A stretch of 64,000 nucleotides of DNA, taken from Halorubrum xinjiangense (GTDB lineage: Archaea > Halobacteriota > Halobacteria > Halobacteriales > Haloferacaceae). Positions within the stretch are counted from its first letter, which is position 1. The number at the start of each line of letters is the position of its first letter. The notes under the pieces were generated by a model. It saw nothing but the letters and a program-made list of their open reading frames with translations, searched no databases and was not told the DNA's origin. The stretch covers positions 372,001 to 436,000 of the forward strand of contig NZ_FNBO01000001.1 of the NCBI RefSeq assembly GCF_900102375.1, given 5' to 3'. Positions 18,188 to 58,435 of the stretch are shown here, piece by piece. The translations under genes were made by a program, and so were the position numbers.

Positions 18188-18277
18188 AAACGGAACGCGG
18201 CACGCGGACGGTCGAGTTGCGGACTACGCCGTTTCCAGAAGCGACCGACCGCGACGATCACTTATAAACGAAACAGC

Positions 18278-18640
18278 GGTGGCGCGTGCCTGCGAGCGGC
18301 CGCCGAAGGCGGCCGCGAGGAGCACGCGCGAGGGACGCGGTGAGCGCTCGGAGAGCGCGAGCCGCGAGGCTGGGGAGGCGTGAGGTGCTGTGCGGTGCCG
18401 TGCGGGGCGGGGTTCAAACGGGCAGTCGCGAGGACGGCGCAGACGACGTAAGCACCGCAGCGAGCAGCGCGAGCGAGGAGCGCAACGAGTCTGCGCCGTC
18501 CTCGCGGCTGGGGCTTTGGAGATGTTCGTCACCGATCCGCGATCGCACACTTATAAGCAAGCGGCTGGGGCTTTGGAGATGTTCGTCACCGATCCGCTAT
18601 CACTCATTTATAAGCGAGCGACTGGGGCTTTGGCGGTGTT
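18278..18640 (+). repeat. Structured dispersed repeat, copy 1 (with tandemly repeated 3' tail)
   Basis: First of four related non-coding elements. It opens with GGTGGCGCGTGC (18278) 10 nt after TTATAA. Hairpin 1 pairs GCGCGTGC with GCACGCGC and, inside, GCGGCCGCC with GGCGGCCGC. Hairpin 2 pairs CGCGG with CCGCG and GCGCTC with GAGCGC. Block GGGGAGGCGTGAGG follows. Hairpin 3 has a 21-bp stem (18423-18443 with 18490-18510, one G-T wobble) enclosing the conserved blocks CGACGTAAGCACCG and GAGGAGCGCAACGAG. The tail GCGGCTGGGGCTTTGG is repeated with an exact 57-bp period (18504, 18561, 18618). It lies between convergent genes. I do not recognise it as a named element. Confidence 0.85.
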
Positions 18641-18660
18641 CCCTGTCGATGTACTATCGG
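18504..18660 (+). repeat. 57-bp tandem repeat of the element's 3' tail (about 2.7 units)
   Basis: Units begin at 18504, 18561 and 18618. The first two differ at few bases, and each of these two ends in a TTATAAG box (18551, 18606). The third unit has lost similarity after about 25 bp. The other three dispersed copies have a single tail. Confidence 0.85.
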
Positions 18661-37390: not shown

Positions 37391-37739
37391 CTTTATAAAT
37401 CGTGGACCACGGATCGACGACGAACACTGCCAAAGCCCCAGCCGCGAGGCGGGCGTACACTCGCTGCGCTCCTCACTCGGTCGCTCACTTCGTTCGCTCC
37501 CTCGTTGCGGTGCTTGCGTCGCCTGCGCCCGCCTCGCGGCTGCCCCTTTGAGTCCACCCCACAGCACAGCACCGCAGCCTCACGCCTCCCCAGCCTCGTC
37601 GGTGGTCCTCCGCTTCGCTCCGGACCACCGACTCACTCGCGCGTGCTCCTCGCGACCGCCTGCGGCGGCCGCTCGGAGGCACGCAGGGAGGCGCTACGCG
37701 CCTCTGGCAGCCGGCGGCGGAGCCGCCGGCGACGCCACC
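37391..37739 (-). repeat. Structured dispersed repeat, copy 2
   Basis: Minus-strand copy filling the gap between rfcS and the phosphodiesterase gene. It keeps GGTGGCG, GCACGCGCGAG, GGGGAGGCGTGAGGCTGCGG, the stem with CAAAG/CTTTG and GGG/GGG, and the loop blocks CGACGCAAGCACCG and GAGGAGCGCAGCGAG. Hairpin 3 has a perfect 17-bp stem (37439-37455 with 37526-37542). Hairpin 2 is a perfect 11-bp GTCGGTGGTCC/GGACCACCGAC. This copy has extra hairpin sequence near its 5' end (GCCGGCGGC/GCCGCCGGC and GAGGCGC/GCGCCTC). It ends in TTTATAAA at 37391-37398. Confidence 0.85.
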
Positions 37740-54668: not shown

Positions 54669-54701
54669 GAGGCGGGATCGTTGATTTATAAATAGAATCA
54701 C

Positions 54702-54982
54702 GGTGGCGCGTGCCGACGAGCGCCCGCAGGGCGCGAGTCGCACGCGCGAGGGACGCCGCGAGCGACGCGGGCGACCGAAGGGAGCCCCGAGCGAGCGGCG
54801 AGGTTGGGGAGGCGTGAGGCTGCGGTGTTGTGTGGGGCGGGACTCAAAGGGGCAACCGCGAGGGCGCCGGAGGCGACGTAAGCACCGGAACGAGGGAGCG
54901 GAGCGACCGAGTGAGGAGCGCAACGAGCGTCCGGCGCCCTTGCGGTTGGGGCTTTGGCGGTGTTCGTCGGACCGCCATTGGA
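54702..54982 (+). repeat. Structured dispersed repeat, copy 3
   Basis: It follows TTTATAAATAG by 10 nt, as in copy 1. Hairpin 1 pairs GCGCGTGC with GCACGCGC and GCGCCC with GGGCGC. Hairpin 2 pairs CGCCGC with GCGGCG. The block GGGGAGGCGTGAGGCTGCGG is present. Hairpin 3 has a 19-bp stem (54853-54871 with 54930-54948, one G-T wobble), with CAAAG/CTTTG and GGG/GGG at its base and CGACGTAAGCACCG and GAGGAGCGCAACGAG inside. The tail ends soon after GCTTTGGCGGTGTTCGTCG and lacks the final TTATAA. Lies between ilvA and the HTH membrane protein gene. Confidence 0.85.
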
Positions 54983-57113: not shown

Positions 57114-57393
57114 CTTATAAACTGTTGCCAGCGGATCGACGAGGAACACCGCCAAAGCCCCAGCCGCGCTCGGCTCCCACAGCTCGCTGCGCTCCTCAGT
57201 CGCTCGCGCTGCTCGCTCCTTGCGGTGCTTGCGTCGCTGGGGTTCGCCGAGCGCGGCTGCCCCTTTGAATCCCACCCTTACCGCACAGCAACCGCACCTC
57301 ACGCCTCCCCAGCCTCGTCGGCCTCCCTCCGGTCGGCCGACTCCCTCGCGCGTGCGACTCGCGCCCTTTGGGCGCTCGTCGGCACGCGCCACC
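57114..57393 (-). repeat. Structured dispersed repeat, copy 4
   Basis: Minus-strand copy downstream of cysS. It keeps GGTGGCGCGTGC, the hairpin GCGCGTGC/GCACGCGC with inner GCGCCC/GGGCGC, hairpin 2 GTCGGCC/GGCCGAC, the block GGGGAGGCGTGAGG, and hairpin 3 with a perfect 14-bp stem (57161-57174 with 57246-57259). CAAAG/CTTTG and GGG/GGG at the stem base and the loop blocks CGACGCAAGCACCG and GAGGAGCGCAGCGAG are intact. It ends in TTATAA at 57115-57120. Confidence 0.85.
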
Positions 57394-57511: not shown

Positions 57512-58435
57512 ATGTCTACGGAGATTACCACCAGACTCGACGCACAATTCGACACGTGTAGTGTGGTCCAGCAGATTCACGACGTGCCGCCACACGCGGT
57601 GTACGAGGTGACTGTCGATGGACGGCGTGCCGTTTACAAGACAGATACCGGACAAACTGGACGTGCCGCAATGGAGGGGCACGTCACGAGATTCGTCGGC
57701 GAAAATACGACGATTCCCGTTCCGGAGACGCTGTACGTCGGAGACGACTACTATGTCGCCGCGTGGCACGACGACGCACCTGCGCCGGACGATGGGCAGA
57801 CCGCAGACGAAGACTGGGCATTCGCCGCCGGAGCGGGATTGGCACGACTCCACGACGAGACGGCTCCGTTGGTCGACAGCTACGGTGCGTTCCGATCGAC
57901 TGCTGGTGGACTCTCCGTCGATGGACACGAGCAGTGGCACGAGGCTGCCACCGACTACGTACGTGGTCGCCGACCAGTGCTCGACCGACACGGCCATGCC
58001 GACATGGCGGATCTTGTCCTCAAGTATCTGGAGGCGCATCCCAACGCGTTCGCCGGGGCCGGTGAGGCGGTCTGCTGTCACGGGTGGGCGACACCCGACC
58101 ACGTCTCTGTGGTTGACGAAGAGATCGCCTGTCTCTTAGATTTCGAACACGCGATCGCCGCGCCGGTCGAATACGATTACTGGCGGGCTGTCGGACCGAC
58201 GTTCGGACCCGACAGCGACGATGACGCCCGAAACGCGTTCCGCAAAGGCTACGAATCTATCCGCTCGCTACCGGACGAGTTCGACCGACGCGCTCCACTG
58301 TATGCCCTCTTGAATTTCGTCTTCTTCTTCGAGTCGCTGTATGTTCAGGATCAGCATGGTCCAGCCGAAACGGCTGAGAAAGCAGCGCAGTTCCGGAAGA
58401 CAATCAATAACATCCTCGACGACCTCAAAGCGTAG
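57512..58435 (+). CDS. APH/choline-kinase-like phosphotransferase
   Basis: The protein has 307 residues from the ATG at 57512 (MSTEITTRLDAQFDTCSVVQ). The phosphotransferase pattern is present: an ATP-binding VYKTDTGQTGRAAMEGHVTR, the catalytic loop CCHGWATPDHVSV (usual H-G-D-x-x-x-x-N, here altered to HGWATPDH) and metal site ACLLDFEHAIAAP with D-F-E. The replaced loop residues make full kinase activity doubtful. The substrate is unknown (aminoglycosides, homoserine or others). Codon use looks less G+C-biased than most neighbours, and repeat copy 4 precedes it. Confidence 0.8.
   Translation: MSTEITTRLDAQFDTCSVVQQIHDVPPHAVYEVTVDGRRAVYKTDTGQTGRAAMEGHVTRFVGENTTIPVPETLYVGDDYYVAAWHDDAPAPDDGQTADEDWAFAAGAGLARLHDETAPLVDSYGAFRSTAGGLSVDGHEQWHEAATDYVRGRRPVLDRHGHADMADLVLKYLEAHPNAFAGAGEAVCCHGWATPDHVSVVDEEIACLLDFEHAIAAPVEYDYWRAVGPTFGPDSDDDARNAFRKGYESIRSLPDEFDRRAPLYALLNFVFFFESLYVQDQHGPAETAEKAAQFRKTINNILDDLKA

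Follow-up and report, generated by a model that had tools for sequence, protein, structure and literature searches.

The window analysed here, a stretch of 64,000 nucleotides from Halorubrum xinjiangense (contig NZ_FNBO01000001.1, positions 372,001 to 436,000), carries four copies of a repeat element, whose positions are collected in Table 1 together with the parts of the third copy. A kinase-like gene at 57516-58435, presumably of the fructosamine kinase or aminoglycoside phosphotransferase fold, stands between cysS and pheA, and several relatives have pheA directly after cysS. A CysS search gave loci headed by Halorubrum, with identities reaching 92%.

In the third copy, the variable stem of hairpin H3, about 20 bp long and beginning at 54853, is carried by an internal loop of three by three bases in which GGG faces GGG, and this loop is closed by a basal helix of CAAAG and CTTTG. 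The first-pass annotation had described this arrangement in copies 2, 3 and 4, and the letters of all three bear it out, the feet of copy 2 (37431-37550, minus strand) and copy 4 (57153-57267, minus strand) likewise reading CAAAG-GGG ... GGG-CTTTG. Copy 1 (18415-18518, plus strand) reads CAAAC-GGG ... GGG-CTTTG, and the single C-C mismatch ascribed to it is real. The range of 54853-54960 originally assigned to the motif needs correction, as it opens at the first base of the stem, 8 bases out at its 5' end, and so leaves the motif's 5' half outside. Nor is the variable stem a lone structure: it belongs to an element of about 270-300 bp, of which the GGG/GGG loop forms the defining core.

Table 1. 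Parts of the third copy and extents of the other three copies in the window
Feature	Position	Strand	Remarks
TTTATAAAT box 5' of the element	54685..54693	+	letters checked
H1 hairpin (GCGCGTGC ... GCACGCGC)	54706..54747	+	variable top, GA/GA mismatches, GCA loop
GAGGGA	54748..54753	+	invariant
H2 variable hairpin (CGCCGC ... GCGGCG)	54754..54800	+	compensated across 25 aligned copies
AGGYTGGGGAGG	54801..54812	+	near-invariant
GGGG-C-GGG, first two G-tracts (GGG-Y-GGG)	54834..54841	+	137/160 Halorubrum copies
ACT connector	54842..54844	+	joins GGG-Y-GGG to the basal helix
Basal helix, 5' strand CAAAG	54845..54849	+	covariation CAAAG:CTTTG vs GAAAG:CTTTC
Third G-tract, 5' side of the 3x3 GGG/GGG loop	54850..54852	+	letters checked
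H3 variable stem, 5' arm	54853..54872	+	pairing and fold
H3 variable stem, 3' arm	54929..54948	+	pairing and fold
Fourth G-tract, 3' side of the GGG/GGG loop	54949..54951	+	letters checked
Basal helix, 3' strand CTTTG	54952..54956	+	letters checked
Copy 1, with tandem 57-bp 3' units	18262..18641	+	ends from blastn matches
Copy 2 of the element	37418..37684	-	blastn matches
Copy 4 of the element	57140..57393	-	beyond cysS

From 5' to 3', the element is composed of an AT box, hairpin H1, GAGGGA, hairpin H2, AGGYTGGGGAGG, a variable linker and the G-core that carries H3. Between one and several tandem units of 57 bp, in which a GGGGCTTTGG foot recurs, follow on the 3' side of H3. These downstream units, seen at 18518-18641 of the window and at many other loci of the same genome, are 57 bp and sometimes 51 bp long, each with the GGGGCTTTGG foot; those of Halorubrum also carry a TTTATAA box, and a similar duplication of the 3' foot, of about 55 bp, was noticed at one locus of another genus. 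In H1, H2 and the apex of H3 (window 54754-54800 and most copies), blocks of 2-bp/GA/2-bp/GNA/2-bp/GA recur, for example GC-GA-AC-GAA-GT-GA-GC, giving a strikingly regular pattern of sheared-GA mini-hairpins. At eight loci, the element's hairpins harbour small double-hairpin inserts, which occur in either orientation, one example being GTCGCCGGCG...TGCCAGAGGGACC...GGTCCCTC, and which recall the SMR insertions reported for Haloquadratum.

The core word CTCAAAGGGGCAG occurs 125 times in the genome of the window and is never reversed. In 153 elements from several genomes, anchored only on the 5' half of the element, the loop guanines of the 5' side were each retained in 133-136 of 137 copies and those of the 3' side in 121-127 of 129. 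Within the allowed mismatches, the 5' foot was absent from 16 of the 153 elements and the 3' foot from 24. Both feet were found in 129, of which 99 had CAAAG/GGG/GGG/CTTTG exactly, six had compensated feet (CGAAG:CTTCG in two, CAAAA:CTTTT in one and GAAAG:CTTTC in three) and the remaining 24 had a changed or misplaced foot.

The base of the stem differs by group, being CAAAG:CTTTG in Halorubrum and GAAAG:CTTTC in other haloarchaeal genera, and its outer pair switches on both sides together, with CTTTG in 72 of 74 Halorubrum stems and CTTTC in all 32 stems from other genera. The pairing of CAAAG with CTTTG, first proposed from the window, is thus supported by compensated change, the helix becoming GAAAG:CTTTC in other genera and, in two copies, CGAAG:CTTCG. 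Near-invariance of the loop over a varying stem, proposed along with it, also holds, GGG lying opposite GGG in 72/74 Halorubrum and 32/32 other-genus stems by a count whose sole demands on the 3' side were CTTT and no fewer than 8 pairs out of 12, and which presupposed the three-base spacing of the loop; no arm was found in 9 of 83 Halorubrum and 3 of 35 other-genus occurrences. The G-variant word GGGACTGAAAGGGG occurs 36 times in 30 loci, and 34 of these copies have a matching 3' arm, always with CTTTC, one of the 34 having lost the stem. Watson-Crick pairs make up 93.5% of the lower stem in the other genera, vs a mean of 51.5% and a maximum of 59.4% when the arms were shuffled, and the same base supports unrelated, compensated stems in related genomes. 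Other genomes, where the first-pass annotation had suggested looking for copies with unconserved tracts or basal pairs, were found to conserve both.

Within the genus, CTCAAAGGGGCAG was present in 43 of 46 genomes with up to 156 copies, and 8 of 345 other genomes gave one or two matches each. Of 194 Halobacteria genomes, 105 contain GGGACTGAAAGGGG, representing 42 of 65 genera; among Halorubrum genomes it is present in only 2 of 22. The 5' module GAGGGA-H2-AGGYTGGGGAGG is class-wide (80/145 genomes, 32/58 genera) and sometimes occurs without the GGG foot. Three loci from some of the genera hold a palindromic element that lacks the GGG foot and in which a long palindrome, such as TTGCCACGATAGCAGAACGC..., separates two opposed 5' modules.

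In several Halorubrum genomes examined, 105 copies lie in spacers, two of them with one unknown neighbour. By genes called with a custom codon model, the spacers with a copy are convergent in 36 cases, co-directional in 47 and divergent in 20, and other spacers number 55, 180 and 61, respectively. Since divergent spacers are under-used relative to other spacers, the copies appear to avoid promoter regions. In other genera, inverted twins were found at 6 of 30 loci by exact word and at a seventh with one mismatch, which is not the rule in Halorubrum; four of the six lie in divergent spacers, which argues against a simple role at 3' ends. Polarity of the copies along the replichores was considered and rejected, the full copy lists showing mixed orientations. 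A copy of the element was also observed within about 1.5 kb of the SRP RNA gene at no fewer than 7 of 19 such loci, and a search for a link between the element and phages found none.

Copies occupy orthologous sites near ilvA, cysS and pheA in many Halorubrum species, where the arms differ yet still pair. The sequences of H1 and H2 are linked to each other (r 0.28 in the genome of the window and 0.57 in a second genome, G009), neither is linked to H3, and the base of H1 is genome-specific, GCGCGTGCC occurring in 30 of 34 copies of the former genome vs 1 of 20 in G009. Because the H1 base is specific to the genome, H3 is unlinked and orthologous arms differ but pair, these observations fit gene conversion among the copies together with structural selection. 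A repeat of no function, whose perfect arms arise by template-switch correction of quasi-palindromes in replication and by gene conversion, would account for the change of arms in blocks at one orthologous site and for H1/H2 modules unlinked to H3, but it leaves unexplained that the unpaired GGG tracts, GGG-Y-GGG and ACT are conserved across genera, and it is the least probable reading considered. Hardly more probable is a binding site in duplex DNA for a regulator or an origin-binding protein, with inverted copies that merely resemble a fold; the near-invariant GGGACTSAAAGGGG and the inverted twins about 30 bp apart would suit such a site, which nevertheless needs neither a compensated stem nor a GGG-CTTTS foot some 100 nt away.

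Transposase-free, palindromic, high-copy repeats, namely PATEs, SMRs and MITEs, with small elements inserted in palindromes, are described for Haloquadratum walsbyi in the available part of one account (PMC3119063), and the present element shares these traits. Compared with what is described there, it differs in having no IS605 ends and in its conserved G-core, class-wide range, conserved sites and homogenised copies. It is improbable that the element is a relic of a non-autonomous IS605-type transposon of the PATE kind, with the palindromes as transposase sites. High copy number, extragenic position, palindromes near the ends and inserts within palindromes are shared with the PATEs and SMRs of that account (PMC3119063), but when the tnpB and Y1 loci of the genome were scanned with a module model, the 5' module lay at 3 of 31 tnpB/tnpA loci, about the density expected by chance, and IS605/PATE origin was rejected; moreover, the 3' ends of tnpB carry a different hairpin, and around cysS, many species have copies at orthologous sites whose pairing is intact. 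A clean element-free site was sought and none was found, the flanks being too diverged. Identical copies at contig ends of one genome (G008) were considered as part of a larger transposon, an autonomous parent of the element, and rejected, the surrounding sequence showing no more than places where the assembly breaks within the repeat.

The 112-nt hairpin folds with the three-by-three loop just as first drawn, basal helix, loop and stem being returned by both RNA and DNA energy models, and none of 200 dinucleotide shuffles under each model was as good (z -7.75 with RNA and -6.07 with DNA parameters). As DNA, the G-strand reaches -36.9 kcal/mol vs -30.3 kcal/mol for the opposite strand. G-T pairs outnumber A-C pairs in the lower stem by 33 vs 9 in Halorubrum and 7 vs 2 in other genera (40 vs 11 in total), and by 50 vs 21 across H3 when restricted to real pairs, all counts coming from related copies and not from independent events. 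Because G-T exceeds A-C and the opposite strand folds worse as DNA, the G-rich strand appears to be the natural folder.

A structured non-coding RNA or 3'-UTR domain, in which GGG/GGG would be a G-G-paired, protein-binding internal loop with no quadruplex, would agree with the RNA fold, with a G-T excess in the same direction as in SRP RNA (26 vs 2 in 19 Halorubrum genomes, by the Rfam structure), with TTATA/TATAA boxes 9-24 nt 5' of H1 in 29 of 42 elements examined in the genome of the window and with the scarcity of copies in promoter regions. We nevertheless regard it as unlikely, although the most serious of the competing readings. The ratio of G-T to A-C across H3 is far below that of SRP RNA, and the apical loops of H1 and H2 resemble those of DNA, 144 of 226 distinct hairpins having a 3-nt loop by a counting rule that leans slightly toward short loops, with 77 GNA and only 2 GNRA; GNA loops are unusually stable in DNA. 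The TATA-like box is mostly 13-22 nt before H1, which by the usual TATA-to-start spacing leaves too little room for transcription to begin 5' of H1, and the orientation of copies in co-directional spacers shows no preference (25 vs 22). In Rfam, the window gives just 2 tRNAs at the gathering threshold, and the element gives no match at E up to 5.

A quadruplex formed by the loop together with nearby GGGG tracts had also been suggested for the window, and this idea now gains a specific partner that had not been named, a conserved GGG-Y-GGG upstream, so that the foot as a whole reads GGG-Y-GGG-ACT-SAAAG-GGG, stem, GGG-CTTTS. GGG-N1-3-GGG precedes the basal helix in 137 of 160 Halorubrum copies vs 2 of 2157 starting positions in the linker beside it, taken as control, and exact GGG-Y is present in 27 of 34 copies from other genera and missing in seven. 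All four tracts, with at least three G each, occur in 134 of the 154 elements that have both feet; one tract or more is missing in the other 20, and 17 further elements have no 3' foot. In the window, copies 1, 3 and 4 carry GGG-Y-GGG, and copy 2 reads GGGG-T-GG, the second tract being just GG.

In quadruplex-duplex hybrids, known in vitro, a duplex hairpin serves as a loop of the quadruplex, and the foot resembles them in its four G-tracts, its duplex hairpin as a loop and the high-K+ cytoplasm in which it resides. According to the available text of one study, K+ in Haloferax volcanii is about 2.5 M, and quadruplexes tested under such conditions had Tm >80 C (PMC12678505). In cells with molar K+, the four-tract foot may fold as a quadruplex-duplex hybrid, or failing that as a core of paired guanines.

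We consider it about an even chance that the GGG/GGG loop is half of a quadruplex-forming four-tract G-core at the foot of H3, in a haloarchaea-wide, REP/BIME-like extragenic repeat. H3 would fold once its G-rich strand becomes single, in nascent RNA, on the lagging strand or in an R-loop. The facing GGG strands and the upstream GGG-Y-GGG would then be positioned for a three-layer quadruplex with a duplex on either side, a structure that molar K+ would favour. The folded foot would be the part that is recognised, and the stem would need only to pair; copies would be homogenised within a genome while the stems drift through compensated change, whatever benefit the repeat may bring to the cell. 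Since the basal helix covaries, a simple three-by-three G-G loop in a duplex would explain much of this without a quadruplex.

REP/BIME repeats of enterobacteria are present in hundreds of extragenic copies, with a conserved foot of the GTAG type under a variable hairpin, and are arranged as inverted pairs in mosaics. The haloarchaeal element is comparable in its many extragenic copies, with 125 exact core words in one genome, its conserved foot under a variable, compensated hairpin, its inverted pairs in other genera and the homogenisation of its copies within genomes. It differs in its foot, which is not GTAG but GGGACTSAAAGGGG (GGG-Y-GGG-ACTS-AAAGGGG/GGG-CTTTS), in its stems of about 100 nt and in having two further hairpins, H1 and H2. 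No solitary RAYT (Y1) was found in the genome of the window, where all 4 full-length Y1 genes adjoin tnpB and 2 fragments lie at contig ends. By this analogy, the element appears to behave like a REP/BIME-type repeat, and its function may be of the same kind.

The repeat system seems to be undescribed: no description was found in the literature searched, which left most subscription journals outside its coverage, and the core words, searched as text, returned nothing but an unrelated paper. The general haloarchaeal G4 motifs treated in the available parts of PMC12873603, PMC12678505 and PMC7565180 differ from the present case, in which evolution has fixed the four tracts at the base of a hairpin that is itself repeated, and no repeat family of such motifs is described in those parts.

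What began as a local oddity thus becomes a testable, haloarchaea-wide structural family with more than 100 copies in some genomes. With somewhat less than even confidence, we propose that it may be a natural family of quadruplex-duplex hybrids throughout the haloarchaea, each built from the two G-strands of the three-by-three loop within a perfect stem and the two of GGG-Y-GGG three bases off, and offering some factor a K+-stabilised handle on a single G-rich strand. Should the G-core fold, it would be one of few quadruplex-duplex hybrids that evolution has fixed and that covariation supports, in a host whose cytoplasm provides the ideal salt, and it would open the way into a repeat system that seems undescribed.
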